In this document: one piece after another, positions 8,603 through 46,572 of the stretch
How positions within the stretch are numbered: position 1 is the stretch's first letter
How the letters are laid out: every line of letters starts with the position of its first letter
From: Planctomycetota bacterium
Lineage (GTDB): Bacteria > Planctomycetota > Phycisphaerae > Phycisphaerales > SM1A02
Reading direction: 5' to 3'
Assembly: GCA_003671025.1 (NCBI GenBank)
Contig: QWPW01000019.1
Span: 1 to 62,253, forward strand
Length of the DNA: 62,253 bases
Program-made: the position numbers and the translations under genes
The notes under the pieces: generated by a model
Told to the model about the DNA's origin: nothing
Databases searched by the model: none
What the model saw: only the letters and a program-made list of their open reading frames with translations

Positions 8603-8641
8603 GTGAGAGTTGTGTTGCACGGTTGAATCGCGGGCGCGCGC

Positions 8642-10846: not shown

Positions 10847-10938
10847 GTTTTCTGCACGTTTTGAATGGAAAGAATTTGATCGATAAGGTCGCGCTCGGCT
10901 CGCGGCTCGGTATCGGACTGCTTCGATACACTTCGCCC

Positions 10939-11583: not shown

Positions 11584-11603
11584 CGGTCGCGACGTAATCG
11601 CGC

Positions 11604-28290: not shown

Positions 28291-28401
28291 AGAGCGTTGC
28301 GGTAAAGCGGTCGTAACAGAGAGGTCTCAGCACCTTCGGAACCGTCCGAGAAACCGCTCGCAGCCGCGCGCGTGTGTCTTAAGGCGATCAACGGAGTTCA
28401 C

Positions 28402-28407
28402 TATACT
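28402..28407 (+). promoter_or_regulatory. Candidate -10 box for the plus-strand polysaccharide operon
   Basis: TATACT lies 18 bases before the start codon of the first plus-strand glycosyltransferase. Only a weak -35 (around cttaag at 28379-28384) is seen at 17-base spacing, so an activator or alternative sigma factor may be involved. Confidence 0.4.
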
Positions 28408-28425
28408 TCGCGTCAGGACTCTTCT

Positions 28426-29361
28426 ATGGCGCTCTCATACGGTGTGGTAACGGCAACACTCAACGCACGGGGATCAGTCCTCGCGGCGTTGCGTTCCGTG
28501 ATCACTCAAACACGTGCGCCCTCCCAATACATCGTGATTGACGGCGGTTCGACCGATGGAACGCGCGAGGTGGTCGAGGCCGAGTTTGCCGCGATTCGCG
28601 CGCGTGGATGCGCGATTCAGCTGCAACTCATCACACAAAATGCGCCCATGGGAATTGCGCACGCATGGAACCAAGCCATCGCGCAACTTGCCGCCGACGT
28701 GGTGTTCTTAGTGAACGCTGATGACTGGCTTGAATCAGATTCGGCAAGTCATGTGATGGAAGCGTTTGCGCGCGATGCCGAGCTTGATGTCGTCCACGGC
28801 AACGCGCGCTTCCATTCGACGCAAGGCGAAGACCTCGGCGTCCTCGCGCCATGTTGGGTCAATCGTCTCGGGGTTCAAAGCCGCACGCTGCACTGTTCGA
28901 CGTTCGTGCGTCGGCGCGTGTACGAGGAGTTAGGAGGCTTTGACCCCAATTTCTGCACCACTCTGGACTATGACTTTCTCGAGCGCTGCTGGCGGCGGGG
29001 GAAGCAGTTTCGTCATCTCGATCGCGTGCTCTCGAATTTCCGTTTAGGCGGGATCTCCAACACATTTCGTTCGCGCGCCGATCTCGAAACACTCAAGATT
29101 GGCCTGACTCACTCGCGCACCAAACTCTTGCCTTTGGCGGCGTACGCAATGCGCAGGTTTGTCCTTCGGCCCATGGGAATCGCGGGCTTTGATTTGTGGA
29201 GCAAGCGCAATTCGCGCGTTGAAGTGTCGCCTCAAGCTCACGCCGTGGGCGGATTCCCCGCGGCAGACCCGAGCGGTGTGATGCAGGACAATCACATCGA
29301 TGCACCACGTCACTCTGCAAGTGCGAACCCAGCGCCGCAACTCGAACGCATCGAGGCATGA
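28426..29361 (+). CDS. Glycosyltransferase family 2
   Basis: A 311-aa GT-A fold glycosyltransferase. ATG 28426 is preferred since AGGA lies 9 nt before it and the family motif begins at once: the nucleotide-binding segment YIVIDGGSTDGT is at 35-46 and the metal-binding DxD-like NADDW at 97-101. Family WcaA/SpsA-like. YDFLERCWRRG (about 184-194) matches the catalytic-base ED/DYDF region. It is the first of eight co-directional genes, and its stop is 3 bases from the start of the next. Donor and linkage are not predictable from the sequence. Confidence 0.93.
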   Translation: MALSYGVVTATLNARGSVLAALRSVITQTRAPSQYIVIDGGSTDGTREVVEAEFAAIRARGCAIQLQLITQNAPMGIAHAWNQAIAQLAADVVFLVNADDWLESDSASHVMEAFARDAELDVVHGNARFHSTQGEDLGVLAPCWVNRLGVQSRTLHCSTFVRRRVYEELGGFDPNFCTTLDYDFLERCWRRGKQFRHLDRVLSNFRLGGISNTFRSRADLETLKIGLTHSRTKLLPLAAYAMRRFVLRPMGIAGFDLWSKRNSRVEVSPQAHAVGGFPAADPSGVMQDNHIDAPRHSASANPAPQLERIEA

Positions 29362-29364
29362 GAG

Positions 29365-30228
29365 ATGTCCGCTGACTCAGGCAGTCGCGAACTCATCAGC
29401 GTGGTGGTGCCCTCATTCAATCAAGGCCGGTGGATCAACGAGTGTTTGCACAGTTTGTTTGCGCAAGCGGATGCCAATTTAGAAGTCATCGTGATTGATG
29501 GCGGATCGACAGATTCGACGCTCGCGGTGCTTGAGCATTGGCGACCACGATTGGCCGCGTGCATTAGCGAGCCTGATCGCGGACAAGCGCACGCCATCGC
29601 CAAAGGGTTCGCCCTCGCTCGCGGTGAACTGTTGAGTTGGCTCAACTCGGACGACATGCATCTGCCGTGGACGATTCGCGCTTGGCGCTCGGCATTTTCG
29701 CGTGATCCGTCCCGCGAGATGCTTCATGGAAATCGCATCATCATGGACGCGTCCGCGCGCGTGATCGGCTATCGACTGCTCCCGGGGCACTCGCGCTTCT
29801 GGCTCAATCGTTTCCCTTGGACCCATCAAGAAACCGCGGTGTGGCGTCGCGACTTGTACCAGCGCGTCGGGGGCATCGATGAGTCACTTCAGTTTGCGAT
29901 GGATTACGATTTGTTCGCACGGTTCTTTGACGCGGGGCGCTGCGCTCACTGCGACGAGTTTCTCGGCGTGTTCCGTTGGCATGAGCAATCCAAGAGCGCG
30001 ACGGTGCAAGCAACGGTGGGGGCCGAGGAGATGCGCACCGTGCGCCAACGACGCGGTGTTCCTGACTACGCGCGAGTTCATCCACTGCGCATGGCCATGA
30101 CTAGCGCAGTGCGTGTAGTCACGCGCGTGCACACGATGCGCGCGCACCGCGTACCCAAGTGCCTCACCGCGACCGGCTTCGAGGTGGCGCAGTTGTGGGA
30201 CAAGACTCCGCACGTCCTGCGTGGGTAA
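29365..30228 (+). CDS. Glycosyltransferase family 2
   Basis: A 287-aa GT-A fold enzyme. VIVIDGGSTDST (41-52) and the metal-binding NSDDM (94-98) are intact, and the active-site region has the DYDLF segment near residue 175 (FAMDYDLFARF). GHSRFWLNRFPWTHQETAVW (about 139-158) carries the usual QE acceptor-site element. It starts 3 bases after the preceding GT2 gene, suggesting coupling. It resembles the WcaA-type enzymes that build capsular polysaccharide backbones. Donor sugar unknown. Confidence 0.93.
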   Translation: MSADSGSRELISVVVPSFNQGRWINECLHSLFAQADANLEVIVIDGGSTDSTLAVLEHWRPRLAACISEPDRGQAHAIAKGFALARGELLSWLNSDDMHLPWTIRAWRSAFSRDPSREMLHGNRIIMDASARVIGYRLLPGHSRFWLNRFPWTHQETAVWRRDLYQRVGGIDESLQFAMDYDLFARFFDAGRCAHCDEFLGVFRWHEQSKSATVQATVGAEEMRTVRQRRGVPDYARVHPLRMAMTSAVRVVTRVHTMRAHRVPKCLTATGFEVAQLWDKTPHVLRG

Positions 30229-30279
30229 GCATCATCGATGCAAACTTCCTGAACACGACTTGTGGTAGAACGACACACG

Positions 30280-31545
30280 ATGCGAGTTCTTCACGTCAGC
30301 ACCTTCGAATCAAGCGGTGGCGCCGCGCGAGCCGCGCATGGCTTGCACGTCGGGTTGGTCGCGGAAGGTGTCGACAGCCACATGTTGGTGCGTGAGCGGC
30401 AGTCGGATGACCCGCGCGTGTGTGTCGCGACTCCAAACGAAGTCGACGCGGGCGCGTGGCGCGAGATCGCGTTGCACTGGATTCACAACAATCGCACGGC
30501 GCTTTCAAACACCTTCTTTTCCACGGGTTTTGCAGGGATTGCCGCAGCCGATCATCCGTTGGTGCGCAGCGCCGATGTCATCAATCTCCATTGGATTCCT
30601 GGCCTGATCGATCCGCGCGGCATCGGCGAACTCCTCGCGCTGGGGAAGCCAGTGGTGTGGACGGTGCATGACGAATGGGCGTATTCCGGCGGTTGCCACT
30701 ACGCGTCGGGTTGCGAGCAGTGGCGTCACTCGTGCCGCGAATGCCCGCAGTTAGCGAGCGATCCACATGGATTGGTGTCGGCCATCTTTCAGGAGAAGCT
30801 CACGCAGTATGCGCGTGGCCCACTCACCGTCGTTGCGCCGAGCGTGTGGCTCGCGGAGCGTGTTCGCGCGAGTGCTCTGCTGCGCGGCTCGCAAGTCGAA
30901 GTGATCCCTTACGGCGTCGATCTCGATGTCTTTACTCCTGCGCGGCGCGACGAGGGTCGCGCGCGATTAGGCGTGCAGCCCGATGAAGCAGTGATCCTGT
31001 TCAGCGCCGATGCGGCGGGAGAACGACGCAAAGGATTCGAAGAACTCTGCGCCGCGCTGGAGTTGGTGCGCGCGCAATTGAATGCGCTGGGATCGCTCGC
31101 GAGTCCCGTGCGTTTGGTGGTGTTGGGCAATGTCGATCGCGTGCAGTTGCCCGAAGGAACCCTGGCTACTGGCCGACTTTTCAGTCGCACCGAACTCGCC
31201 AGTGTCGTGGCTGGCAGCGATCTCTATGTGTTGCCCTCGCTCGAAGACAATCTTCCTAACGGTGTGCTTGAAGCACTGGCGTGCGGCACTGCATGCGCAG
31301 CATTCACCGTCGGCGGCGTACCCGACATGTTGGCCCATGCACCGATTTCGTATCTGGCTCCCATGGGTGATGTCGCCGCGCTCGCTGGTGCGATGGTGCG
31401 CGCAGTTCATGATTTGCCCACGCTGCGCACACGCCGCGCGGATTTGCGCGAGCATGCGTTGAAGCATTACGCACTCTCGCACCAGGCGCGTTCGTACATG
31501 AAACTTTACTCCGCGCTCCTCGCAGAAAGTTTGACGGCTGCATGA
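30280..31545 (+). CDS. Glycosyltransferase family 4
   Basis: A 421-aa GT-B glycosyltransferase. The ATG at 30280 begins the conserved MRVLHVSTF..SGGAARAAHGL N-terminus; the GTG at 30262 is out of keeping with the family. The region VWTVHDEWAYSGGCHYASGC (about 130-149) with clustered Cys/His is characteristic of a GT4 subgroup. The donor-binding C-terminus contains SLEDNLPNGVLEALACGT, the EDNLPNxxLEA version of the E-x7-E motif. The last four bases (ATGA) overlap the start of the following FkbM gene. Confidence 0.93.
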   Translation: MRVLHVSTFESSGGAARAAHGLHVGLVAEGVDSHMLVRERQSDDPRVCVATPNEVDAGAWREIALHWIHNNRTALSNTFFSTGFAGIAAADHPLVRSADVINLHWIPGLIDPRGIGELLALGKPVVWTVHDEWAYSGGCHYASGCEQWRHSCRECPQLASDPHGLVSAIFQEKLTQYARGPLTVVAPSVWLAERVRASALLRGSQVEVIPYGVDLDVFTPARRDEGRARLGVQPDEAVILFSADAAGERRKGFEELCAALELVRAQLNALGSLASPVRLVVLGNVDRVQLPEGTLATGRLFSRTELASVVAGSDLYVLPSLEDNLPNGVLEALACGTACAAFTVGGVPDMLAHAPISYLAPMGDVAALAGAMVRAVHDLPTLRTRRADLREHALKHYALSHQARSYMKLYSALLAESLTAA

Positions 31546-32555
31546 GTGATGTCACGAGTAACACCGCAAGTAGCACCGCTGCTGCAACGATGAACACAGC
31601 AACGCAGGGAAACATGAGCAGCGCGCAAGACATCCCCTCCCCGACATCGGCATCACTCGAGATGTTGGCGTTGCGAATGTTCGCGCAACCGATGTTGGAC
31701 AAGCTCGCAACGCTTGAAGCGCAGTACGAATCCCTGGCGCGCCGCGCGGCCAAAGCGGAACTCGAGAACGAGCAACTGCGCTCGACACTGGCATCGGGGC
31801 GCGAACTGCTCAAGCATCTCGGTCGGCGCGCGACTGCGAGATTTCGCGGTATTCGTGGCTCGGCCTCTGCGGCGGTTGATGCGCCGACTGCCTCACTGTT
31901 GCCGCTTCCCACCGAGGCCGCGTTGGCGCGCGCGATGCTTCGCGGCGTTGAAGTCAAGACCATCATCGATGTCGGCGCTTCCGATGGTCGCTGGACCGAA
32001 CTCAGTCGTCACGCGTTTCCCGAAGCGAAGGCGTTGCTCATGGAAACCAACGAAGTGCATCGTCCAGCGTTGGACCGTTACTGCGCCGCGCGGCCTGGAT
32101 TTTCTAATGTGATCGCCGCGGTTGGACCTGCGCGCACCGAGTTGTGGTTCGAGCGCACCGAAGATCCCTACGGCGGTCGCGTGCATTCCGAGAAACGCTG
32201 TGCTGATTGGATCCCGCTCGCGGGAACCACCATCGATCTCGAAGTTGCCGAGCGCTCGCTTGAGGGCCCGTACCTGATCAAGCTCGACACGCACGGATAC
32301 GAAGTGCCCATTCTCGAAGGCGCGAAAGACACGCTGCAAAAGGCGTCGCTCGTCGTCATCGAGGCGTATGCCTTTCGCATCGCATCCGACAGTTTGATCT
32401 TCCATGAACTCTGCGCGTGGATGTGGGAGCGCGGATTCATGGCAGTTGATTTATGCGAGCCCGTCACGCGCCCGCGCGATGGATGTTTGTGGCAAGTCGA
32501 CATCGTGTTCTCACCGCGCACGCGGCCAGAGTGCGGAGTGCGCACATGGCAGTGA
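31542..32555 (+). CDS. FkbM-family methyltransferase with N-terminal coiled coil
   Basis: A 337-aa protein. Residues about 1-35 are Ser/Thr/Ala-rich and disordered-looking; 40-90 form a heptad-like coiled coil (LDKLATLEAQYESLARRAAK). The SAM-binding motif is IDVGASDG at 142-149, followed by the FkbM-type IKLDTHGYEVPIL near residue 246 and VIEAYAFR. FkbM proteins O-methylate sugars or polyketides (family knowledge), so it likely decorates the glycan. The start overlaps the previous gene by 4 nt and the end overlaps the next gene by 10 nt, so it is embedded in a coupled operon. The coiled coil could dock it to the glycosyltransferases or to chain-length control. Confidence 0.88.
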   Translation: MSDVTSNTASSTAAATMNTATQGNMSSAQDIPSPTSASLEMLALRMFAQPMLDKLATLEAQYESLARRAAKAELENEQLRSTLASGRELLKHLGRRATARFRGIRGSASAAVDAPTASLLPLPTEAALARAMLRGVEVKTIIDVGASDGRWTELSRHAFPEAKALLMETNEVHRPALDRYCAARPGFSNVIAAVGPARTELWFERTEDPYGGRVHSEKRCADWIPLAGTTIDLEVAERSLEGPYLIKLDTHGYEVPILEGAKDTLQKASLVVIEAYAFRIASDSLIFHELCAWMWERGFMAVDLCEPVTRPRDGCLWQVDIVFSPRTRPECGVRTWQ

Positions 32556-33439
32556 GCGAGAGTTCGCCTTCTCCGTTGGTGACGGTGGTGACGCCGAGTT
32601 TCAACTCAGCCGAGTTCATCGAACGCACGATTCTCGCGGTGAAATCGCAGGAATACCCGCGCGTCGAACACATTCTCATGGACGGCGGCTCCACCGATCA
32701 CACCATGGAAATCGTCGAGCGTCACCGCGCGCACTTCACCCACATTCACAGCGGCAAAGACAACGGCATGTACGACGCGATTCATCGCGGCTTCGCGCAG
32801 TCGAGCGGCGAGATCATGACCTGGCTCAACTCCGATGATGAGTGGTTGCCCGGAACATTGCGCACGGTGACGCGACTCTTTCAAGAGTTTCCTGATGTCG
32901 AATTCATGACCAGCGGTTTCCCGTGCGCCATCGATGCCACGGGTGCGATGATCGCCACTGCGCGACTGTCAGGCTTTAGTCGCAACGGTTCCAAGCGCGG
33001 AGAGTTTCTTCCCGCGTGCGGTTGGCCCGCCGATGGATTCATCCAACAAGAGTCGACCTTCTGGCGACGATCGCTGTGGGAGCGCGCCGGTTCGCGCATG
33101 GATCACTCGCTGCAATTTGCCGGTGACTACGAGTTGTGGTCGCGCTTCTTGTCGATGGCGCAACTCTGGTGCGTCGAAGTTCCGCTCGGATGTTTTCGTC
33201 GACGCGAAGGTCAGAAGACTGCGGTCGCGCTCAACAGTTACCTCGATGAAGCGCGCACAGTTTTTTTGCGCAGCGGTGGCAAGATTCCCTCGCGGCTGAA
33301 CGCGACTCTGCGCGTGGGATTCCGTCGTCATGCGCCGCCGCAAATCAAGCAATTCCTCGGTCGAAACGGTTGGTACGAGCGTCGTCCACACCTTCTCTAC
33401 GACTGGGGAGCTTCACGCTGGACACAGTCGTGGTACTGA
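32546..33439 (+). CDS. Glycosyltransferase family 2
   Basis: A 297-aa GT-A fold enzyme. ATG 32546 has CGGAG 8 nt upstream and overlaps the end of the FkbM gene by 10 nt. Motifs: ILMDGGSTDHT (43-53), NGMYDAIHRGF (73-83) and the metal-binding NSDDEW (95-100). An acceptor-site element FIQQESTFWRRSLW follows at about 160-173, then a DYELW segment near 190. WcaA-like; donor unknown. Confidence 0.93.
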   Translation: MAVSESSPSPLVTVVTPSFNSAEFIERTILAVKSQEYPRVEHILMDGGSTDHTMEIVERHRAHFTHIHSGKDNGMYDAIHRGFAQSSGEIMTWLNSDDEWLPGTLRTVTRLFQEFPDVEFMTSGFPCAIDATGAMIATARLSGFSRNGSKRGEFLPACGWPADGFIQQESTFWRRSLWERAGSRMDHSLQFAGDYELWSRFLSMAQLWCVEVPLGCFRRREGQKTAVALNSYLDEARTVFLRSGGKIPSRLNATLRVGFRRHAPPQIKQFLGRNGWYERRPHLLYDWGASRWTQSWY

Positions 33440-34776
33440 ACCCGCCGCATGCATTGCTCGAGCAAATGGCGCAGCGCCTGAGTGCGCGCGGTTCGCTGCG
33501 CATTGTGATGTTGAGCGATCTCGGTTTCGAATACGGCGCGGGTGCCGCGATGCGTCGACAGATTCAGAGCTTGCTGCTCGACGGACACGAAGTCGCCGTG
33601 GTGTGCGCAGGCTCGTTGCACGAGGGACGGGTCGTCGCTGCGAGTGATCCAGGTGTGGCGGCGCTTGTTCCGCGCGGACGCGAGTTCAGTGGAACATGGT
33701 TGGGCGTGCATTCGGTTCCTGCGGCGGCGTGCATGGATTCGCGCCAACGACGTCGGTGTGATCCCGAACTGCTCGCGATGGTGGCCTGGCTGCAACCGGA
33801 TCTGGTCATCGCGGGCAATCTTCATTGGGCGGGGTGGTCCGCTGCAGTGCTTGAGGCGCTCACGCGTAGAGGCATCGCGACCGTTGCGTACATGCACGAT
33901 TTGCACCATCTGACTGGGCGTTGCGCGCATCCCTACACCTGCCGCAAATTCCTCACGGGCTGTGACGCGTCGTGTCCCACGGCAGAAAAATATCCCGCGC
34001 TGTCGAGTGAACTCATCGCCGATGAGTGGATGGTCCGTCGTCATGTCTTCGTCGAAACCGCCGTGCCCTTGGTGGCCAACAGCACGTGGACCAAAGCGTC
34101 TGCCGATGCCGCGTTTGGAAATGCGGCCACCGTCGACATCGTGCGTCTTGGTGTGGACACGAAACTGTTCGCACCGATCGACCGTTCGCTCGCGCGTCAC
34201 TTGCTGGGCGTCGATGAGAAACCGACCGTTCTCTTTGGCGCCGTTGATGTGGGGCAAGTCGAGAAGGGCGGGGTCGTCCTGCAACACGTCGTCGACATCT
34301 TGCAGCGTGAGGGCATCAACTTCGTCGCGTTTGGCTACGGATCTGCGGCGTATCGCGGCGTGCGCGGACTGGGCTATGTCAGCGACGAACGACAAATGCC
34401 CATTCTTTACGCCGCATGTGATTGCTATCTCTCCGCCTCCGCGGTGGAGAGTTTTGGTCAGACCGTGCTCGAGGCAAGTGCATGCGCGCGCCCAGTGGTG
34501 ACCTTGCGTGGTGGTGGCATTGTCGACATTGCGCGCGACGGTGTGAACGGTCGCACCATCGCCGATGCCGAGCCACGACTCATCGCCGATGTGGTGCGCG
34601 AGATTGCCTGCGACGCCGCGGCGCGTGATCACTTCGGTGCCGCGGGTCGTTTGATTGCCGAGCGCGAGTTTTCACTTGATGCGCAAGCTGCGTCATGGCG
34701 TGCGTGGATGAGTTCGCAAGGCGAGCCACGAGCCTCGCGTGAACAAGGTCAATCAATGAGTGAGGCGCGTCCATGA
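33430..34776 (+). CDS. Glycosyltransferase family 4
   Basis: A 448-aa GT-B enzyme using the GTG at 33430, which overlaps the preceding stop by 10 nt with GGAC about 8 nt upstream. An ATG at 33466 just before the conserved LRIVMLSDLGFEYGAGAAMR is a reasonable alternative. A Cys/His-bearing segment HHLTGRCAHPYTCRKFLTGC (about 158-177) resembles the one in the other cluster GT4. The donor domain has SASAVESFGQTVLEASACAR, the E-x7-E region. Its stop overlaps the start of the next GT2 gene by 4 nt. Confidence 0.91.
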   Translation: MVLNPPHALLEQMAQRLSARGSLRIVMLSDLGFEYGAGAAMRRQIQSLLLDGHEVAVVCAGSLHEGRVVAASDPGVAALVPRGREFSGTWLGVHSVPAAACMDSRQRRRCDPELLAMVAWLQPDLVIAGNLHWAGWSAAVLEALTRRGIATVAYMHDLHHLTGRCAHPYTCRKFLTGCDASCPTAEKYPALSSELIADEWMVRRHVFVETAVPLVANSTWTKASADAAFGNAATVDIVRLGVDTKLFAPIDRSLARHLLGVDEKPTVLFGAVDVGQVEKGGVVLQHVVDILQREGINFVAFGYGSAAYRGVRGLGYVSDERQMPILYAACDCYLSASAVESFGQTVLEASACARPVVTLRGGGIVDIARDGVNGRTIADAEPRLIADVVREIACDAAARDHFGAAGRLIAEREFSLDAQAASWRAWMSSQGEPRASREQGQSMSEARP

Positions 34777-36065
34777 ACAAAGCGTTCGCCGTGTGTCGCG
34801 CGTTGATCATGCCGCAGCGCCCAGCGACTGTCGCCGCGCACCCGCGTGATGACCGTGATCGAGATGGTTCACCGCTGGTGAGCATCGTCACGGTCTGTCT
34901 CAATCGCGCGAGCACGCTGCAGCGCACGATCGACTCGGTGCGCGCGCAATCGTGGAAAAACATCGAGTACATCGTGCTCGACGGCGGATCCACCGATGGC
35001 ACCGTGGAGGTGATTCGCGCCAACGAGGACATCATTTCGTTCTGGCGCAGTGCGCCCGATGCGGGCCTGTACGCCGCGCTCAACGAAGGCGTCGAACGGT
35101 CGCGCGGCCGCTTCGTGCAGTTCGTGCACGCCGATGATTGGCTCGATGAACAACAGATCGCGCGCGCCGTTGAAGTGGCGACATCTGTCTATTGCGATCT
35201 CGTTCATGGCGATCTGATGATGCATCGCGCACAAGGCGGCGAGTGGCTGCGCGTCGGTGACGATGGATGGTTTCCCCTTGAAATCGCGGCACTTCCGCGT
35301 ATCTCGCATCCCACTGTGTTGGCGCGACGCGCGGTGTATGAGCGCATTGGTCTCTTCCGCACCGACCTGCGCATCGCTTCTGACGTCGACTGGCTGTTGC
35401 GCGCGGCGCACGCGGGACTGCTGATGCGCTACTGCCCGCTCATTCGTTCGCACATGTCTGAGGGCGGCATCAGCACGGTGCAGCAACGGTTGGCATTGGC
35501 CGAGTTTGTCGCACTGCTCGCGCATGTTCCGCGTCGAAGCTTGCCGCAAGCGTTTGGTGCGTTGTGGTTGATGTTCACCCATGAACCCGCGGTGCAGCGT
35601 GCTGGTGCGTACAGCGCCCGCGTTGGAAAATCGTTGCGTGCATGGCTCGAACGCAACCGCTTGCGGGCGCGGCGAATCATCATCAATGGGCTACACGCGA
35701 CTGGTCTCATTGGCAGTGCGCGAATCGTGTACTACAAGAAACTCGCGCGTTGGACTGCTCCCGCGCCCAAAGGAATTGCATCAGGGCCGCCGCTGCCCAC
35801 GCGGGCAATGCGCGCGATGCGCCGAACACTTGTCGCAGTGCTACGTGCGACCGGATTGATTGGACCAGTGCGCGCCTCGTACCGACTCGCCGCAGGCATC
35901 GCCGCCGAACCGATTCCATTGGAACTCGATCGCCGCACCTTGGCGCGCTTCGCCGAACTGCGATTTGCGCGCGCCGATCTTGATGACGCCACCATCGCGC
36001 GTCTCGTTGAGAACGCACAGATGCCACCAACCGCCGCGAGCGACGATATCCTCGGCCCATCATGA
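34773..36065 (+). CDS. Glycosyltransferase family 2 with extended C-terminus
   Basis: A 430-aa protein whose GT-A domain occupies about 35-260: YIVLDGGSTDGT (66-77), AGLYAALNEGVERSRGRFVQ (97-116), and the metal-binding HADDW (119-123). About 150 extra C-terminal residues follow. They contain two copies of a basic helical motif, HATGLIGSAR near 308 and RATGLIGPVR near 358, about 50 residues apart, which suggests an internal duplication of an amphipathic, membrane-associating or partner-binding segment. The ends overlap neighbouring genes by 4 nt each (ATGA). Confidence 0.9.
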   Translation: MNKAFAVCRALIMPQRPATVAAHPRDDRDRDGSPLVSIVTVCLNRASTLQRTIDSVRAQSWKNIEYIVLDGGSTDGTVEVIRANEDIISFWRSAPDAGLYAALNEGVERSRGRFVQFVHADDWLDEQQIARAVEVATSVYCDLVHGDLMMHRAQGGEWLRVGDDGWFPLEIAALPRISHPTVLARRAVYERIGLFRTDLRIASDVDWLLRAAHAGLLMRYCPLIRSHMSEGGISTVQQRLALAEFVALLAHVPRRSLPQAFGALWLMFTHEPAVQRAGAYSARVGKSLRAWLERNRLRARRIIINGLHATGLIGSARIVYYKKLARWTAPAPKGIASGPPLPTRAMRAMRRTLVAVLRATGLIGPVRASYRLAAGIAAEPIPLELDRRTLARFAELRFARADLDDATIARLVENAQMPPTAASDDILGPS

Positions 36066-36877
36066 ATCTCTTGCAACGACTCGGTCTGAGTTCTCGTGTG
36101 GAGGCCTATCGCCAAGAGGCCGCATCAGACGGAATTGGTGCGACCGAACTGGTGGCCTTGCGCGAAGGCGACGCGCGCGAAATCGAAGCGCTCTATCGCA
36201 TGGGAGCTCTCGCGCAACTGCGCGAGCGCAAGGGTCGCTCGCGCGATCTCGCGCAACTCATCGGAACATCTGTGGGCGAAGGCCTCTATCTCTGCGATGC
36301 GCTGCAGCATGCGTTGGACAACGCCGGCGATGTCTGCGAATTCGGCGTCGCGCAAGGCGCAACCTCGCGTTTGCTTGCGGGTGAGTTGTCGGCGGACACG
36401 CGCGGTCACGACCGCAATCTCTGGCTGTTCGATAGTTTCGAAGGACTGCCGCAACCCTCGGCCAAAGACAAGTTGATCGACGACATCTTCAAACTGGGAA
36501 CGATGGACGCGTATGCGGGCACGATGCGATGCGCGCGAACGTTGGTCGAAACCAAACTGCGCGATGCGGGATTTCCTGAGCATCGCGTGCACATCAAACA
36601 AGGATGGGTTGAAGAGACGATTCGCACTGCGCCGCTTCCGAGCAAGGTCGCGTTTGCGTATGTCGACTTCGATTTCTATCAACCAATTCTTGACGCACTG
36701 CATTGGCTCGACACCGTGACCGAGCCTGGTGCGCGCATCGTGGTGGACGATTACGGATTTTTCTCCGATGGCGCGCAGGCCGCGACTGACGAGTTTGTCG
36801 CCGAGTGCGGCGGACGTTGGCAACTCTCTTTCCCTTTGCCCAGCGCGGGGAAATTCGCGTTGTTGCAGCGGGTGTGA
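36062..36877 (+). CDS. TylF/MycF-family sugar O-methyltransferase
   Basis: A 271-aa SAM-dependent methyltransferase. The N-terminal ~75 residues are helical. The SAM motif is CEFGVAQGATSRLL (about 92-105), with LWLFDSFEGLP downstream, which is the TylF hallmark, and KVAFAYVDFDFYQPILDAL then VVDDYGFF supplying the metal/catalytic acidic residues. TylF-type enzymes methylate deoxysugar hydroxyls. It is the last gene of the coupled plus-strand run (ATGA overlap with the GT2) and convergent with the sulfotransferase gene, with 16 bases between stops. Confidence 0.92.
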   Translation: MNLLQRLGLSSRVEAYRQEAASDGIGATELVALREGDAREIEALYRMGALAQLRERKGRSRDLAQLIGTSVGEGLYLCDALQHALDNAGDVCEFGVAQGATSRLLAGELSADTRGHDRNLWLFDSFEGLPQPSAKDKLIDDIFKLGTMDAYAGTMRCARTLVETKLRDAGFPEHRVHIKQGWVEETIRTAPLPSKVAFAYVDFDFYQPILDALHWLDTVTEPGARIVVDDYGFFSDGAQAATDEFVAECGGRWQLSFPLPSAGKFALLQRV

Positions 36878-36893: not shown

Positions 36894-37778
36894 TCACGGT
36901 GAGACTGAGGTTACCTGCGTCATCGCATTCGATTGCTCGGACTCATGTACGACCGCGAGTTCATCGCGGCACACGTCATCAAGTATCTCGCACCGCGGCG
37001 CTGCTCCCCAGCGCACTGCATCCATCATCGCGTCGCGCACGCGCGTGACTGAATCACTCAGCGGCTCATCAATCGCAGCGTGATGACGCAGTGAAGGGTG
37101 GAGAAATTCTTCGATGGCGGCAGTCGCTGGTGTCGGAACCAGCGTGCCACGCGGAAGAATCGCCGCCGCGCGTGCGACCACGGTGCGCCAATCACCCATC
37201 AACAATTGGTAACTCACGAATGCGCGCGGAAGATCACGCGTGTATCGCTCCGCGAGCAGCACGTGTTCCATCCACGCGCGTTGCGCCAATGCGGTGGGCA
37301 TTCCATCGCGCTTGGCCAAACTAGCGGCGACTTCTGCAGGTTCACGCACTGCATGAAGCGCGCTCACGCGACGGCCAGTCTTGCGCAACACGCGTCGCCA
37401 CAACGGAAGCAGTCGACAGATGCGCGGCTCCTTGATCAGCCAACAACGGCTCTGCGAAAACATTCCGCGTCCCCATTCTTCGTGCACGATCTTGAGGAGA
37501 TCGGCCTCGGCAACGCGCGCGTCCTTCGAGGCAAACCACGCGGGATCGATGGGCTGCTCCGCGATCATGGTGGTTCCGATACGACTCAGGAGCGCTTCGT
37601 GATACTCAATCAATCGCCGCGATTCCCAGTATCCGCGCTCGTTGTCGCCGGCAACCGCTTCGAAGAGCGTGCGCGGAAGTGCGCCGCCGCACAGTGAGAG
37701 CACGCGCGTCAGCGCCGACGTTCCGCTGCGATGCATGCCCAGCACCAGCAGCACTGACTTGCGCGCGAAGAACGTCAT
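36894..37778 (-). CDS. Sulfotransferase
   Basis: A 294-aa PAPS-dependent sulfotransferase, transferring sulfate to a hydroxyl or amine of a glycan. The 5'-phosphosulfate loop is VLGMHRSGTSALTRVL (about 12-27), with the catalytic-type histidine nearby. Tyr/Trp-rich sections such as RGYWESRRLIEYHEALL and KEPRICRLLPLW follow; the latter fits the 3'-phosphate-binding KxPR region. The ATG at 37778 overlaps the upstream methyltransferase stop by 4 nt (ATGA). Three modification genes in this run therefore share one operon with the Wzt-like ATPase. Confidence 0.88.
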   Translation of the reverse strand: MTFFARKSVLLVLGMHRSGTSALTRVLSLCGGALPRTLFEAVAGDNERGYWESRRLIEYHEALLSRIGTTMIAEQPIDPAWFASKDARVAEADLLKIVHEEWGRGMFSQSRCWLIKEPRICRLLPLWRRVLRKTGRRVSALHAVREPAEVAASLAKRDGMPTALAQRAWMEHVLLAERYTRDLPRAFVSYQLLMGDWRTVVARAAAILPRGTLVPTPATAAIEEFLHPSLRHHAAIDEPLSDSVTRVRDAMMDAVRWGAAPRCEILDDVCRDELAVVHESEQSNAMTQVTSVSP

Positions 37779-38428
37779 GCGCGGAAGTACCTGCCCATCA
37801 TCTGTCCGCGCGGGTGATCCCACGCGCCGATGTCTTCAAACTTCCATCCGCTCTCGACGCCAAACGAATGCATCTCTTGCGCGGTGTAGTAGAAACACAA
37901 GCGCGAATGGCTCTCGGTGGGATTGGTGTGCTCGAAGTCGCGGCGAAAGAAGGTGGCGAAGAGTTGCGTGTGGGGCGCGGCAATCGCGGCCATTCCTGCC
38001 AGCGATCGACGAATGTCCTGCGGTGTGAGATGAGTGAAGATCGACTGCGCGATGGCGAAGTCGGGTTGCTTGGTGAACTCACTCAGATCAAATCGTCCAT
38101 TGAGAACGAATTGCGGGCGCCGCGCGAGAAACTGCTCATGTCCGAGTTCATTGAGCACGCCGAGGATGACGAGATCAATCGACTTGTCGAAGCCGAGATA
38201 GTTGTCTGCGTTGAGATAGGGGATGAAGTGCATGCCCGCACGCAGCGATCCACACGCGAAATCAAGCAGCACATGATGTGGCTCGAGTCCGCGCGCGCGC
38301 ATGAACTCAAACTGCAGTCGTCCGATCTTCTGCCACAAATCGCCGTCGCCGCCGACAAACGCACGATGTCCCAGTTTGCGTACGCCCAGAGCATCATCGG
38401 TGGCGTCAGTGTTGTGTTCGATAGTCAT
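37775..38428 (-). CDS. Class I SAM-dependent methyltransferase
   Basis: A 217-aa methyltransferase. The SAM-binding motif I is VLLDFACGSLRAG (about 53-65), followed by the helix-strand pattern expected for a Rossmann fold, NYLGFDKSIDLVILG (about 76-90), then a later IAQSIFTHLTPQDIRRSLAG segment in which IFTHL is the usual motif III area. The acceptor cannot be identified. It overlaps the downstream sulfotransferase gene by 4 nt and lies 57 bases downstream of the Stf0-like gene, in the export/modification operon. Confidence 0.85.
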   Translation of the reverse strand: MTIEHNTDATDDALGVRKLGHRAFVGGDGDLWQKIGRLQFEFMRARGLEPHHVLLDFACGSLRAGMHFIPYLNADNYLGFDKSIDLVILGVLNELGHEQFLARRPQFVLNGRFDLSEFTKQPDFAIAQSIFTHLTPQDIRRSLAGMAAIAAPHTQLFATFFRRDFEHTNPTESHSRLCFYYTAQEMHSFGVESGWKFEDIGAWDHPRGQMMGRYFRA

Positions 38429-38485
38429 CGGTCGAGAAATCTCAGATGGTGGGATGGGGTAGGGATTGCGATTGCGCTCGCGAGT

Positions 38486-39250
38486 TCAGGACTTCGCTGA
38501 CGCGAGATCGCGCTCGAAAAGTTTTCGTATCGCGTTCGTGGCATCGTCGCGTTGAATGCGCAGGTCGGTCGCGAAGTGATGATCAAGCGGAATGTCGCGC
38601 CCCGCAAGTCGCGCAAAGGCACGCACCGTGGGGACAGGATCACCGAGCATTTCCTCGTACACCGCCTCGATCATCACTGCGCCAGGAATCTGCGCGCACG
38701 AGTTTGCCGCGCGTTGGAGTTCGCGCGCGTGATGCTCCACTTGCTGCAGCGCGAGACGCAGTGCGGCGAAGTCGTACGGCGGCATCTCTTGCGGAACCGC
38801 GTCATCGGTGCGTATGGCGAAGCGGTTGGTCGCGGTGGCACGCCACATCGAAACGGCTTGACCGACAGTGTCGCGTCGACGCAGAACAAGAATCGCAGGC
38901 CGCGGAAACACGCGCGCCGCCCACGCATCACTCACGCCATCGCCAATGCCCCAGCGAACAAGTGCCGCGGGAAGCTCGCTCCAAATCGAAGAGATGATCT
39001 TGATCGCGAAGACGCCGTTGCGAGTTCCCGCGGCTTCGCGCAGATTCGTCAAGAACACCTCGCCGTTGTGCGCGCCATCTGGCGGCAACTCGGAGCGACT
39101 CTGTGCGTTGGGGTGGATCAGACGCGTGAGCCACTCGCGACAGACACCCATGGTTTCCGTCGAGCGCATCAGCGACGCGGTCCACGAACTTCCCGATCGT
39201 GGAGTCGTGAGCACAATCAATGCGGTGCGAGGAGAATCAGCGGGCAACAT
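38486..39250 (-). CDS. Sulfotransferase (Stf0-like)
   Basis: A 254-aa PAPS-dependent sulfotransferase. ATG 39250 has AAGGAG 4 nt upstream and overlaps the end of the Wzt-like gene by 14 nt, so the pair is coupled. The 5'-PSB motif is TTPRSGSSWTASLM (about 15-28), and VCREWLTRLIHP resembles the Stf0 family's substrate-binding section. ILVLRRRDTVGQAVSMWRA (about 115-133) is the usual 3'-PB region with RRxD..(A/S)QA(V/I)S. It is a second, different sulfotransferase from the one at 36894, so two sulfation steps or sites are likely. Confidence 0.85.
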   Translation of the reverse strand: MLPADSPRTALIVLTTPRSGSSWTASLMRSTETMGVCREWLTRLIHPNAQSRSELPPDGAHNGEVFLTNLREAAGTRNGVFAIKIISSIWSELPAALVRWGIGDGVSDAWAARVFPRPAILVLRRRDTVGQAVSMWRATATNRFAIRTDDAVPQEMPPYDFAALRLALQQVEHHARELQRAANSCAQIPGAVMIEAVYEEMLGDPVPTVRAFARLAGRDIPLDHHFATDLRIQRDDATNAIRKLFERDLASAKS

Positions 39251-40715
39251 CGTTCTCCTTCTCTCGGTTCGCATGATCACGCATTGTGTTTGACGTAACG
39301 CGCGCCTCTTGGGCAATCGCGCCGAAGGCGACTTGCGGTTCACTGCGATGAATCGCGGCGTATCCGTGATAGGTGCGCGACGACCAACTCTCCACCACGA
39401 TCGCGGCCACATCACCGAGTCGATGCAGGAACGCTTCTTCGGCGAGTGATCGCACAGTGACACTGAGAAAATAGTTGCCCGGTGTGAGTCGCATGTCGAT
39501 GGGAAATTGCACGCTCACGCGCGAGTCAGCGGCGACATGTGTGGCATCCGCGCGAGATGGATGGGCGAAGCCTGCGACGACAACTCCCTTCGCAGTACGA
39601 AGCGTGTAGCCATACATCACGCTGTCGGCGGCGCGATCAAACACGACTTCGAAACGAATCGTGTAGTGCATGTCGACGCGCAGGCGATTGCGTCGCACAC
39701 CATCGCTTCCTTCGATGCGCGGATCTTCGATGCGCACACCGGCGCCGGCGCGATCCGTTTGTTCGGTGGCGGTGAGCGAGGGATCAAACCATCCCAACGG
39801 ATCTTCGATCACACGCGGAGCAATTTGTGCGGTCGTCGCCGCGGCGCTCGTGTTCGCCGGCGCCGTCGTCGTATCACGCCCCGGTTCGCGCGTGGTGCCC
39901 GCGTAGAGCACGCGGTGATAGTGAGTGATCACGTCGCGCGGATCGCCATCATCAATCTTGCGTCCATCCTCCAGCAAAATCGCGCGACGACAGAGTTCGC
40001 GAATGGCGGTGACGCTGTGAGAGACGAAGAGAATCGTGGCGCCGCGGTCTTTGATCGCTTCCATTCGCGCGAAGCACTTGCGCGCGAACGCGTCGTCACC
40101 GACAGAGAGAATCTCGTCGACGATCAGAACGTCAGGTTCCACACAGATGGCCACCGCAAACGCGAGTCGTGCGAACATTCCGCTGGAGTACGTCTTCACT
40201 GGCGATTCGAGCGCCGCACCGATGTCGGCAAATGCGGCGATTGAATCGAAGTTCGCCAACGCCTCTTGATGCGTGAGTCCTAACACCGACGCGTTGATCA
40301 TCACATTTTCGCGACCAGTGAAGTCTTGATTGAATCCTGCTCCAAGCGCCAAGAGTGGTGCGATGCGGCCATGCACTTGCACGGTGCCCTCACTCGGTTG
40401 CAGCACCCCCGCGAGGATGCGCAACAGCGTCGACTTGCCGCTGCCGTTGCGACCGATGATTCCCAGTGTTTCGCCGCGACGCACTTCGAGATCGATTCCG
40501 CCGAGTGCACGCTTCTCGTGATAGAACTTTCGCTTGCCATCATCGCGCTTCCCGCCTAGGAGCAATTGCTTGAAGCGATCGGTCGGATTGTTGAAGACGC
40601 GGTAGACCTTGCCGATGCCGCTCATGCGAATCGCAACTGGCGCCGAGTCACCAGCGGCGTCGCTTGCGCTGTCGCTGTTGTTGTTCTCGTCGAGATCTTT
40701 CTGTGGACTCATCAT
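39237..40715 (-). CDS. wzt: Polysaccharide ABC exporter ATPase with C-terminal binding domain (Wzt-like)
   Basis: A 492-aa ATPase. Motifs: Walker A GRNGSGKST (88-96), signature SSGM (177-180, a shortened but typical Wzt/TagH form), Walker B LIVDEI (197-202) and H-loop SHS (232-234). A Thr/Ala-rich linker (about 270-300) leads to a ~180-residue beta-rich C-terminal domain of the Wzt_C type (GYTLRTAKGVVVAGF, GNYFLSVTVRSL), known in characterised homologues to bind the modified non-reducing end of the exported chain. It begins immediately after the permease stop and overlaps the Stf0-like gene, so export and sulfation are produced together. Confidence 0.95.
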   Translation of the reverse strand: MMSPQKDLDENNNSDSASDAAGDSAPVAIRMSGIGKVYRVFNNPTDRFKQLLLGGKRDDGKRKFYHEKRALGGIDLEVRRGETLGIIGRNGSGKSTLLRILAGVLQPSEGTVQVHGRIAPLLALGAGFNQDFTGRENVMINASVLGLTHQEALANFDSIAAFADIGAALESPVKTYSSGMFARLAFAVAICVEPDVLIVDEILSVGDDAFARKCFARMEAIKDRGATILFVSHSVTAIRELCRRAILLEDGRKIDDGDPRDVITHYHRVLYAGTTREPGRDTTTAPANTSAAATTAQIAPRVIEDPLGWFDPSLTATEQTDRAGAGVRIEDPRIEGSDGVRRNRLRVDMHYTIRFEVVFDRAADSVMYGYTLRTAKGVVVAGFAHPSRADATHVAADSRVSVQFPIDMRLTPGNYFLSVTVRSLAEEAFLHRLGDVAAIVVESWSSRTYHGYAAIHRSEPQVAFGAIAQEARVTSNTMRDHANREKENDVAR

Positions 40716-41543
40716 TCAAACCACATCCGCAAACGCGGGGCGAAGCCGCTGAAAGATGGCGAAACCCGCGACAAACACCACGAGCGAACCCGCGAGACAG
40801 AGTCCGAGCGCGACGAAGTTTGGTGTCGCTGATTCGAAGAGTGCTTCACGTGCTTCCGTCACAATGGTGGTGATGGGATTGAGTTCGATGAAGACGCGCG
40901 CGGATGCAGGTGCTGCATCAAGGCTGTAAAAAATTGGGCTGAGAAACATTAGTGAAGTGCAGATGAGTCCAGCGATTTGCGTGAGGTCACGAAAGTACAC
41001 GCCGATCGCGCTCAGCGCCCAGCCTGCGCCGAGCGCAAGAAACACAAGCGGCAGCGCGATGAGTGGAATCCACAACACCCCCAGCGGCGGCGCGCCCAGC
41101 AAAATGCAGTGAAACACGAGCAGAATCGCGAACGAGACGGTTGCGTTGAACAGCGCCACCGCGAGGGTCACCATGGGCAGGATTTCCAGCGGAAACACCA
41201 CCTGCTTGACGAACGTCGCGTTGTTGCGGATGAGCGATGGACTCGACTGCACCATCTCCGTGAGGATCTGAAACAACAGCAGCCCTACGAAGAGCAAGAG
41301 TACGAAGGGAATCTGCCGACCTTCGCGTTCCGTCACGCGCGCTTGCAGCACTGATCCAAATGCAAAGTTGTAGACGGCGAGGGTGAGCAGCGGCACCGCG
41401 ACGGCCCACAGTGGACCGAACAAACTGCCGCGATAGCGCGCGGAGATATCGCGTCGCGCGAGGCGATCGATGAGACGGCGATGTCGCCATCCCACGGTAA
41501 ATGCATCAGTAAAGCTTGTCGCTAACGCGCTGGAAACCGCCAT
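40716..41543 (-). CDS. wzm: Polysaccharide ABC exporter permease (Wzm-like)
   Basis: A 275-aa six-helix ABC-2 permease. ATG 41543 is favoured over the longer start at 41600 because homologues begin near this point. The conserved cytoplasmic N-terminus RHRRLIDRLARRDISARYRG is followed by GSLFGPLWAV; further membrane spans are at about 68-92, 121-145, 150-175, 185-205 and 240-265. LNPITTIVTEAREALF near 215-230 is the family's late signature. It pairs with the adjacent Wzt-like ATPase to move lipid-linked glycan across the inner membrane. The gap to the upstream repeat-protein gene is 61 bases; possible -10 sequence TACACT sits about 9-14 bases before ATG. Confidence 0.94.
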   Translation of the reverse strand: MAVSSALATSFTDAFTVGWRHRRLIDRLARRDISARYRGSLFGPLWAVAVPLLTLAVYNFAFGSVLQARVTEREGRQIPFVLLLFVGLLLFQILTEMVQSSPSLIRNNATFVKQVVFPLEILPMVTLAVALFNATVSFAILLVFHCILLGAPPLGVLWIPLIALPLVFLALGAGWALSAIGVYFRDLTQIAGLICTSLMFLSPIFYSLDAAPASARVFIELNPITTIVTEAREALFESATPNFVALGLCLAGSLVVFVAGFAIFQRLRPAFADVV

Positions 41544-43155: not shown

Positions 43156-43338
43156 AAACACACCAGTGCATGGAGTGAGTGTGAAACTCGCGTGCGTGGG
43201 ACAACGTCGCGCGGGACGCCGCAAAGAATTTCGGCGCTCGGAGGGATCGGCAGGCGGGCCGAGCGCGTTCAGCAGCGGACCGACTCGGTCGTGCAATGGC
43301 TGCGTGTTGTGTGGGTCATGCACCCCATGACGAGAGTT

Positions 43339-43362
43339 CGAGCGAGGGCGATATCTCGCTCG
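43339..43362. other. Perfect 8-bp inverted repeat
   Basis: cgagcgag (43339-43346) and ctcgctcg (43355-43362) flank an 8-base spacer. It has no T-tract. It lies in the upstream region of the gene starting at 43155 and might be an operator; a functional role is not shown. Confidence 0.3.
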
Positions 43363-43452
43363 GCGTGAGCGACATCATGGGGATGCGCCACGCTACGAAA
43401 GCCCGAGCATCTTGAGACTTGCTGCGGGAAACGAAGCGGCTTGCCAAGAAAA

Positions 43453-43481
43453 ACGGACGCGCTCGCATTGAGCGCGTCCGT
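43453..43481 (-). terminator. Intrinsic terminator after the long repeat protein
   Basis: Perfect 12-bp stem (acggacgcgctc / gagcgcgtccgt) with a 5-base loop at 43465-43469. On the minus strand it is followed by TTTTCTT. It lies about 75 bases past the stop of the gene ending at 43556. Confidence 0.9.
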
Positions 43482-43555
43482 GGGTTTGCGGAGTTGGTTG
43501 AGAACGTCGTCGCCAATGTCGCGCGAGAGTTGCGTCGGGCTAACGCGTCACTCAC

Positions 43556-46249: not shown

Positions 46250-46572
46250 GGTGTGCTTTGGTGTGCGGGGTGATGCCGCGAAAGTCTGTGAGGGGCGATG
46301 TACAGGAGAGCGCGGCGAGGTCGCGGTGATACGCCTTTTCTGCACAGAAAGATCTGAGTGTTCATTTCACAAAGTCGACGCGAACTGCCTCAGGGGAGGA
46401 TCGGACGAAAATCCATCTTCAAGTATGCCATCGATTGCGGGGCGATTGCTACGGATTCGTTCTTCAACCCGACAGAGATCACAACAAAACACCGCCCCGC
46501 ATCCATCGAAGGACGCGGGGCGGCGAGTGCATTCAGAAGCTGTGAATTCCCGCGTATTCGGCGGAGATTGGT
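46250..46572. other. Intergenic region between two repeat-protein genes
   Basis: 323 bases containing only the terminator at 46493-46522 (for the gene ending at 46573) and the upstream region of the gene starting at 46249. No other gene is apparent, and no strong promoter was recognised. Confidence 0.6.
46493..46522 (-). terminator. Intrinsic terminator after the third tandem repeat-protein gene
   Basis: 12-bp stem with one mismatch (cgccccgcatcc / ggacgcggggcg) and a 6-base loop at 46505-46510. The minus strand then reads GTGTTTTGTT. It lies 50 bases after the stop of the gene ending at 46573. Confidence 0.82.

Follow-up and report, generated by a model that had tools for sequence, protein, structure and literature searches.

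Organisation of the locus

The window, i.e. the whole 62,253-nt stretch of DNA analysed here, comes from a bacterium of the order Phycisphaerales within the Planctomycetota. From position 41543 down to 36894 its minus strand carries five consecutive and mostly overlapping genes, wzm, wzt, stf0, a methyltransferase gene (MT) and a second sulfotransferase-like gene (ST2), which are listed with their surroundings in Table 1. This gene set and its order had been recognized in the initial annotation and are confirmed. The full gene order recurs in a genome of the same genus (G060), which speaks against chance. The end of wzm (40716) directly abuts the start of wzt (40715). The ATG of stf0 at position 39250 is preceded by GAGAAGGAG, and the first 14 nt of this gene overlap with the wzt end, while MT and ST2 share 4 nt (ATGA); both distances had previously been given as gaps. 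Overlapping or near-overlapping ends are thus found for wzm/wzt, wzt/stf0 and MT/ST2 but not for stf0 and MT, which are 57 nt apart. The range 37775–41543 formerly assigned to the whole set leaves ST2 (36894–37778) outside.

Table 1. Position and predicted function of genes at the locus
Feature	Position	Strand	Description
wzm	40716..41543	-	275 aa; ABC-2 polysaccharide export permease; ATG 41543; PF01061
wzt	39237..40715	-	492 aa; ABC ATPase with C-terminal cap-binding domain (Wzt_C); PF00005 and PF14524 above cut-off
stf0	38486..39250	-	254 aa; Stf0-like PAPS sulfotransferase; ATG 39250; PF09037
MT	37775..38428	-	217 aa; class I SAM-dependent methyltransferase; weak PF08242
ST2	36894..37778	-	294 aa; divergent sulfotransferase-like protein; ATG 37778
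TylF-like O-methyltransferase	36062..36877	+	facing operon, convergent with ST2; PF05711, 1.3e-22
FkbM methyltransferase	31542..32555	+	N-terminal coiled-coil-like stretch; PF05050, 4.8e-9
Glycosyltransferase genes	27154..36065		GT2 and GT4 families, same glycan cluster; Pfam
Wzy_C/O-antigen-ligase-like membrane protein	25811..27157	-	PF04932, 4e-17

The exporter and its cap-binding domain

The wzm product matched ABC2_membrane (PF01061) with 87.3 bits (cut-off 26.9; E 1.3e-24) and scored 59.1 bits against the NCBIfam model Wzm/RfbD, below its cut-off of 380. In the wzt product, ABC_tran (PF00005) was matched with 76.1 bits (cut-off 25) and, at residues 326–453, Wzt_C (PF14524) with 64.4 bits (cut-off 30.4), the only Wzt_C match found in the genome. 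The full-length O-antigen exporter WzmWzt of Aquifex aeolicus (7k2t, 8dku, 8dky, 6o14), which likewise consists of a Wzm permease and a Wzt with a nucleotide-binding domain and a C-terminal jelly-roll cap-binding domain, provided the top-ranked fold matches of Wzt; confidence of the C-domain model was 61–85 by blocks over residues 331–420 and lower beyond. A profile built from ten Wzt C-domains matched 8dky, 6o14, 2r5o and 5hno, with a value of 1.4e-11 for A. aeolicus Wzt. The C-terminal domain is therefore a genuine Wzt_C, as had been assumed, and the locus has two features of a cap-reading Wzm/Wzt exporter, an ABC-2 permease encoded next to an ABC ATPase and a C-terminal Wzt_C of known fold.

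The A. aeolicus protein holds 3-O-methyl-mannose via Asn313, His350 and Trp362, among other residues (PMC9445017, in the part available). In an alignment that is tentative in this region, the equivalent positions of the window's Wzt are Ala, Arg and Arg. Neither the methyl-stacking Trp nor the hydrogen-bonding His of the 3-O-methyl pocket is kept, so the ligand is probably a different one. Both the His350- and the Trp362-equivalent positions are basic in 6/7 loci of the window's Wzt type compared to 0/71 other Wzt proteins, of which 12 are gapped at the latter position. The Trp362 equivalent is often Arg or Lys in the other proteins as well (14/71). This two-basic-residue signal stems from one gene lineage.

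The sulfotransferase-type proteins, the methyltransferase and sulfate activation

The stf0 product is, judged by its sequence, a true Stf0-family sulfotransferase. It matched Stf0 Sulphotransf (PF09037) with 47.4 bits (cut-off 22; E 2.2e-12) as the only such protein in the genome, the Stf0 profile matched the trehalose 2-sulfotransferase Stf0 (1tex) at 2.3e-20, and its conserved N-terminal motif PRSGSSW, which we take to be PAPS-binding, aligns with RSGS of 1tex. An assignment to the trehalose 2-sulfotransferase equivalog was rejected: against NCBIfam NF047724 the protein scored 28.3 bits, far under the curated cut-off of 400, and the substrate is therefore probably not trehalose. Of the 251 genomes of the order, six contain strong Stf0 matches (>40 bits), four of which lie in a Wzm/Wzt locus.

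MT matched Methyltransf_12 (PF08242) weakly (17.6 bits, cut-off 30). A class-I-like motif, which reads LLDFACGSLRAG in the window, is conserved up to one or two changes in seven aligned sequences including that of the window, and MT has six relatives of 54–85% identity. For ST2, the 309-aa frame gave no Pfam match at E 0.1, and the trimmed protein reached 13.4 bits with Sulfotransfer_3 (PF13469), under the cut-off of 27. The same family was weakly matched by all six aligned ST2 members, the window's included (best E 2.6e-4), and the relative in genome G105 reached 20.9 of 27 bits. All six share a P-loop-like GMHRSGTSAL and an R-x7-S motif. RSGTS would correspond to the 5′ phosphosulfate loop and R-x7-S to the 3′ phosphate motif of sulfotransferases. 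The structure model of ST2 was too poor for a fold test (mean pLDDT 44.5). Its sequence fits a divergent sulfotransferase.

Genes for sulfate activation lie together on another contig (C24), where a CysD-like frame, a 669-aa CysN-like GTPase fused to APS kinase, a second APS kinase and a CysQ-like frame of the inositol-phosphatase family were found. The CysD-like frame is the sole PF01507 match in the genome. With these synthesis genes present, the organism is predicted to make PAPS. Sulfite reductase was found in 0/1 for the window's genome and in 11/14 control genomes.

Recurrence of the gene module among relatives

Besides G060, four further genomes of the genus have the combination Wzm-Wzt-MT-ST2, and MT and ST2 accompany the window's Wzt type in all seven loci. 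Stf0 is missing from 4/7 loci with the same Wzt/MT/ST2 set. A TylF-like gene is in the locus in all three Stf0-positive cases and in none of the three assessable Stf0-negative ones. The similarity of Wzt_C does not follow Stf0, since the domain of the Stf0-positive G105 is 38–41% identical to those of Stf0-negative loci, 31% to that of the Stf0-positive G060 and 36% to that of the window.

Gene fusions were observed repeatedly. In G105, Stf0 is fused to an MT homologue and the fusion overlaps the wzt end, with an ST2 relative (34%) 2.5 kb away on the opposite strand, while in G107 an ST2-homologous region fused to two glycosyltransferase domains lies beside wzt. In genus g31, unrelated Sulfotransfer_3::Methyltransf_11 fusions stand beside wzt in 7/7 loci, in one of them (L088) with a 4-nt overlap. 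A Wzm-like frame was found in 0/7 of the 12-kb stretches of these loci (E 0.01); the fusions therefore adjoin wzt but no recognisable wzm.

Across the order, a sulfotransferase frame occurs within 6 kb in 24/83 Wzt loci compared to 2/40 control regions of 20 kb each. With independent, less biased queries these counts were 15/83, seven of the 15 coming from one genus, and 2/40 (Fisher p = 0.055). The coupling of sulfotransferases and methyltransferases to wzt looks real and recurrent.

Discussion

The chemical mark that licenses a polysaccharide for export has been established in few Wzm/Wzt systems; methyl, methyl-phosphate and Kdo are known. The best explanation of the locus overall, with a probability of about 0.6 as judged from the genes, would be a cap-reading Wzm/Wzt exporter whose operon includes group-transfer enzymes of its own. 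In the cytoplasm, a lipid-linked glycan would be assembled by the glycosyltransferases of the facing operon, the constant MT and ST2 and the variable Stf0 would then put methyl and sulfate groups on it, and Wzt_C would bind the chain end and feed the glycan to the Wzm channel. The repeated pairing or fusion of such enzymes beside the same kind of exporter gene in relatives suggests sulfation and methylation of the chain before its export, and the exported glycan probably carries both groups.

The further proposal of the initial annotation, that sulfation and methylation make the mark read by Wzt_C, is tentative and falls short of even odds. The genuine Wzt_C, the Stf0 family membership, the PAPS genes, the recurrent linkage and fusions, and the two basic cap-contact residues speak for it; the loci lacking Stf0, the Wzt_C sequences that do not co-vary with it and the presence of FkbM as a rival cap-maker speak against it. 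MT and ST2 are most likely better candidates for the export mark than Stf0 because both accompany the window's Wzt type throughout, while Stf0, whose gains or losses coincide with those of the TylF methyltransferase, most likely decorates the glycan. We consider it rather unlikely that bacteria of the Phycisphaerae use PAPS-dependent capping, in which a sulfotransferase and a methyltransferase, separate or fused, would make a sulfated and methylated terminal sugar read by basic pocket residues of Wzt_C.

The cap could instead be made by the coiled-coil FkbM protein in the manner of WbdD-type polymerase-terminator systems, with Stf0, MT and ST2 decorating internal or side sugars only. In characterised systems the terminator belongs to a protein that contains a coiled-coil ruler (PMC11231755, in the part available), and by a home-made heptad score over 28 residues FkbM ranks highest of 14 locus proteins (0.99, residues 58–85), followed by one stretch in Stf0 (0.83) and by ST2 (0.45), with none in MT. 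By the same score, the long coiled coil usual for terminators was not seen in Stf0, MT or ST2. The FkbM gene is present in the window and in 5/6 other genomes with this Wzt type compared to 0/2 same-genus genomes with another type, and the coming and going of Stf0 with TylF is as expected of decoration. However, the FkbM coil is short (about 45–60 residues by eye), scores lower in relatives (0.61 in G060, 0.82 in G286, the best stretch lying elsewhere in G105), and FkbM is without a match in G195 (88% complete, the gene missing inside the cluster), where Wzt, MT and ST2 are nonetheless present. Together with the loss of the Trp and His of the 3-O-methyl pocket, this makes FkbM a somewhat doubtful cap-maker. 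Similarly doubtful is that the sulfotransferases and MT decorate the polymer along its length, as in a sulfated O-antigen or capsule, while the end recognised by Wzt_C is unmodified or capped in another way. The capsule of Cobetia marina KMM 1449, which comes with a Kps ABC exporter cluster, carries its sulfate on a sugar of the repeating unit (PMC11766843), the sulfated capsule of Vibrio sp. KMM 8419 with its Kps-type cluster is a similar case (PMC11641403), both as far as the available text goes, and the presence of Stf0 follows TylF and the content of the cluster. Against this, the genes overlap wzt or each other and not glycosyltransferase genes, two are fused in G105, and both cap-contact positions are basic, among the aligned Wzt proteins, in the window's type only. 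Finally, the set might merely be co-transcribed, with sulfotransferases acting on lipids or small molecules and an incidental proximity to wzt. Sulfotransferase genes are common in the order (PF13469 in 215/251 genomes), the enrichment by locus with independent queries is borderline, and in the wbsalmo cluster of Aeromonas salmonicida a sulfotransferase-domain gene directly follows wzt while no sulfate was seen in the O-antigen according to the part of the account available (PMC4483657). Yet the gene order is conserved across genera, and beside wzt there are sulfotransferase-methyltransferase fusions of two unrelated kinds as well as one fusion of a sulfotransferase-like region with glycosyltransferase domains, which makes such a coincidence improbable.

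An exporter operon with its own group-transfer enzymes resembles the loci of WbdD (E. coli O9a) and ORF6 (K. pneumoniae O7), where a group-transfer enzyme is paired or fused with a methyltransferase near an ABC exporter (PMC11231755, available part). Those proteins are kinase-methyltransferase chain terminators, whereas the window has a sulfotransferase in place of the kinase, with chain termination as a possible role, and a long coil was not seen in Stf0, MT or ST2. The Vibrio and Cobetia strains likewise combine an ABC polysaccharide exporter with sulfotransferases and PAPS genes, but their capsules use kps genes, in contrast to the window's Wzm/Wzt and its cap-reading domain. The presence of PAPS synthesis genes within the cluster itself has been called a hallmark of sulfated ABC-exported polysaccharide clusters (PMC11641403, available text); here, the APS kinase, CysD-like and CysN-APS-kinase genes lie on contig C24, outside the window. 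Compared to the single 216-aa sulfotransferase-domain protein described for A. salmonicida, there are two sulfotransferase-type genes plus MT. As sulfated Kps capsules, cyanobacterial ABC-type clusters with sulfotransferases (PMC8205485, in part) and the A. salmonicida wzt neighbour have been published, the initial view that sulfated polysaccharides exported through Wzm/Wzt would be unusual has to be toned down.

If the capping reading is true, it would add a sulfate-based export certificate to the methyl, methyl-phosphate and Kdo caps, and such capping would have evolved repeatedly, starting from sulfotransferase families that are not related. The recurrent module, the natural presence or absence of Stf0 in sister genomes and the fusions offer concrete genes and residues for the question of sulfate as a mark. 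The module also marks out environmental Phycisphaerae as likely producers of sulfated surface glycans.

Results

Organization of the wzm-wzt operon

The genes wzm, wzt, stf0, MT and ST2 share one direction on the minus strand of the window, stf0 encoding a sulfotransferase of the Stf0 family, MT a class I SAM-dependent methyltransferase and ST2 a divergent sulfotransferase-like protein. The order of these five genes agreed with the initial annotation, but the spacings of 14 nt and 4 nt given there are both overlaps according to the coordinates, and its range 37775–41543 falls short of the operon because ST2 lies outside it. The sequence GAGAAGGAG is located upstream of the stf0 ATG.

The operon is faced by a cluster of glycosyltransferase genes that also encodes an FkbM and a TylF methyltransferase, followed by genes for a Wzy_C/ligase-like protein, a DegT aminotransferase and an epimerase (all by Pfam). 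On the other side, wzm is adjoined by three consecutive genes for large FG-GAP-repeat proteins, homologues of which also adjoin wzm in same-genus loci of this Wzt type, i.e. with MT and ST2. Past them lies the gene of a sigma-54-dependent response regulator, with syntenic homologues in relatives.

Coordinates of the operon and of further features
Stretch	Feature	Position	Strand	Remarks
Window	wzm	41543-40716	minus	Pfam match over cut-off; directly abuts wzt
Window	wzt	40715-39237	minus	ATPase and Wzt_C (residues 326-453), Pfam, both over cut-off
Window	stf0	39250-38486	minus	Pfam Stf0 over cut-off; begins inside wzt (14-nt overlap)
Window	MT	38428-37775	minus	weak Pfam match; 57 nt beyond stf0
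Window	ST2	37778-36894	minus	no Pfam match at E 0.1; 4-nt overlap with MT
Window	TylF-like methyltransferase	36062-36877	plus	
Window	three FG-GAP-repeat proteins	41605-48141	minus	572, 929 and 522 aa
Window	response regulator	48484-49983	minus	Response_reg, Sigma54_activat, HTH_8
L090 (genome G107)	wzm-wzt, sulfotransferase, 1291-aa frame, another sulfotransferase	4230-12074		1291-aa frame: ST2-like + GT4 + GT2
L002 (window genome, contig C24)	SIS-plus-CBS (KdsD-like) frame	253-1401		directly adjoins CysN-APS-kinase gene

Identity of ST2 and the supply of sulfate

Sulfotransfer_3 was weakly matched by all six aligned ST2 members, window included (best E 2.6e-4). All six also carry the motifs GMHRSGTSAL and R-x7-S, which we take to be the two PAPS-binding motifs of sulfotransferases; the relatives in the MT and ST2 alignments were picked by synteny and do not represent all homologues. 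Profile searches of the PDB returned two chance-level rows for ST2 and none for MT, and the AlphaFold model of ST2, built from only three sequences, had a pLDDT of 44.5.

The window genome (3.25 Mb, 68 contigs, 96% complete) contains two APS kinase matches, both on contig C24. The first is a frame of its own, with a CysD-like frame (PF01507) and a CysQ-like one of the inositol-phosphatase family as neighbours, and the second forms the end of a 669-aa frame starting with a GTP_EFTU (CysN-like) domain; these Cys names were assigned by reading. A separate PAPS reductase was not found in this genome, the CysD-like frame being the sole PF01507 match, and the sulfite reductase family had no match there but was detected in 11 of 14 control genomes. 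The lack of reductase matches in a genome of this completeness suggests that PAPS in this organism may be spent on sulfation. A SIS-plus-CBS frame adjoins the CysN-APS-kinase gene, so the PAPS genes may have genes of the Kdo type next to them. LpxC was found as well, hence lipid A, and with it an O-antigen, would be possible.

Sister loci and distribution of Stf0

A close match to MT occurs in 7 of 181 genomes of the family, window included, the others being 54–85% identical to the window MT, and an eighth genome has a distant match (31%). Besides MT, all seven possess Wzm, Wzt and a relative of ST2, although the contig end truncates the ST2 copy of G179 and that of G105 (34%) is encoded 2.5 kb away on the opposite strand. 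Three of the loci (window, G060, G105) contain Stf0, and the other four (G162, G179, G195, G286) lack it. The TylF-like methyltransferase was found in 3/3 loci with and 0/3 assessable loci without Stf0, a co-occurrence that hints at a common sugar substrate. In G105, stf0 and MT form a single 480-aa frame overlapping the end of wzt. In four genomes of the same genus (G002, G048, G081, G168) the Wzm/Wzt locus is of another kind and lacks Stf0, MT and ST2.

Within the order, Stf0 matches occur in 15 of 251 genomes; six exceed 40 bits, four of which lie in a Wzm/Wzt locus. Stf0 relatives in named records amounted to 23 loci, two being those of G060 and G105 and 21 distant (24–30% identity). Wzm and Wzt occurred together in none of these 21 (phmmer map, E 1e-4; flanks of unequal length), and the Wzt matches near distant Stf0 genes (L038, L039, L049, L051, L057) cover the ATPase domain only.

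Sulfotransferases beside Wzt in the order

Wzt_C is found in 121 of 251 genomes of the order. The survey comprised the window and 82 further Wzt neighbourhoods, namely Wzt_C matches of at least 49.9 bits (window included) plus G239, G157 and G286, and thus does not follow one strict cut. A sulfotransferase-family frame of at least 30 bits was located within 6 kb at 24 of the 83 loci, a count biased upward because the sulf3 HMM was trained on 12 neighbourhood and 4 own-genome segments. Same-strand frames within 1.7 kb were present at 21/83 loci, in 9 of 49 genera. The control gave frames in 2 of 40 stretches (3 frames) from genomes of the same set, these being 20-kb regions on Wzt-bearing contigs as compared with ~12 kb around Wzt. 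With independent queries from elsewhere in the window genome, 15/83 loci (17 frames in 1.0 Mb) were positive versus 2/40 (2 frames in 0.8 Mb), which gives p = 0.055 when loci are compared, and 7 of these 15 come from g31, a single other genus of the order. The 30-bit threshold dropped a match in L015 (19.4 bits), and fusions in L018 and L094 were not counted as their methyltransferase scores fall under the Pfam cut-off.

All seven g31 loci (L074, L076, L078, L081, L083, L084, L088) encode a protein adjoining wzt with Sulfotransfer_3 and Methyltransf_11 domains, both over cut-off; in L088 the fusion measures 653 aa and the start of its gene overlaps wzt by 4 nt. A smaller sulfotransferase frame lies at or overlaps the wzt end in five of the seven, and the two checked by Pfam were both over cut-off. 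However, a Wzm-like frame was found in none of the seven 12-kb stretches, compared with a match in 70/83 loci overall, which counts against a simple reading of the g31 fusions. By eye, their methyltransferase part is unlike the window MT. From these sequences, sulfotransferase and methyltransferase genes probably became paired with a cap-reading Wzt on more than one occasion. A further arrangement was noticed in L090, where wzm-wzt is followed by a sulfotransferase, a long composite frame and another sulfotransferase.

The C-terminal domain of Wzt

The window Wzt_C is the only such match in its genome. As a single sequence it had no PDB match at E 1, but a profile of ten Wzt C-domains from the order retrieved 8dky/6o14, 2r5o and 5hno, the latter two presumably from E. 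coli O9a and Raoultella, respectively. Entries 8dky and 6o14 are A. aeolicus structures (6o14 according to an excerpt of PMC9445017). The top-ranked fold matches of the window Wzt model were full-length A. aeolicus WzmWzt, with the ATPase domain dominant in the VIA-align rows. The Wzt_C assignment, for which the initial annotation had proposed a structure-based comparison, is borne out by Pfam, the ten-sequence profile and these fold matches.

In A. aeolicus, the 3-O-methyl-mannose cap is contacted by Asn313, His350 and Trp362 among others (PMC9445017, in excerpt), whereas the window Wzt has Ala, Arg and Arg by alignment. Positions 350 and 362 are both basic in 6 of the 7 loci of this Wzt type and in none of the 71 further loci that aligned (12 gapped at 362), which have a basic residue at 362 in 14 cases and at 350 in 2; five of 85 sequences without a domain alignment (L035, L097, L110, L117, L118) were left out. 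An anionic ligand would fit two basic positions, seen here in one gene lineage and aligned in a variable region. Between the window and G060, Wzt_C shows 43% identity, compared with 71% in the ATPase domain and 85% in MT; by these values, Wzt_C is evolving faster than the two other modules. Covariation of Wzt_C with Stf0, suggested by 38% identity of the Stf0-bearing G105 to the window versus 32–33%, was overturned by the full identity matrix, in which G105 is 38–41% identical to loci without Stf0, 31% to G060 and 36% to the window.

Discussion

Sulfated capsules with Kps-type ABC clusters have been published (PMC11641403, PMC11766843) and cyanobacterial ABC-type clusters with sulfotransferases were mentioned (PMC8205485), while in A. 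salmonicida a sulfotransferase-domain gene directly follows wzt, with no known sulfate (PMC4483657), as far as excerpts of these four papers tell. Among the matches listed from the open-access literature, with subscription papers largely outside this scope, there was neither a Wzt-read sulfate cap nor a sulfotransferase-methyltransferase fusion beside wzt.

The operon enzymes would most likely modify a cytoplasmic lipid-linked glycan ahead of export. It was proposed initially that sulfation and methylation by these enzymes create the chain-end mark read by the Wzt C-terminal domain. A cap made jointly by MT and ST2, at times joined by Stf0, is a tentative explanation, for which the constant linkage, the fusions and the basic positions speak. 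It competes with a cap made by FkbM, which bears an N-terminal coiled-coil-like stretch: terminators of published systems bear a coiled-coil ruler (excerpt of PMC11231755), and FkbM occurs in the window and 5 of 6 other genomes of this Wzt type but in 0 of 2 genomes with the other type; against it, FkbM was not found in G195. Sulfation as decoration competes as well. The weakest candidate for producing the mark is Stf0, because it is dispensable and travels with TylF.

As read from the genes, the idea of a mark made by the operon is a reasonable hypothesis. The sulfotransferase/methyltransferase arrangement beside Wzt is real and recurrent, and we put the probability that this exporter handles a sulfated, methylated glycan at roughly 70%.
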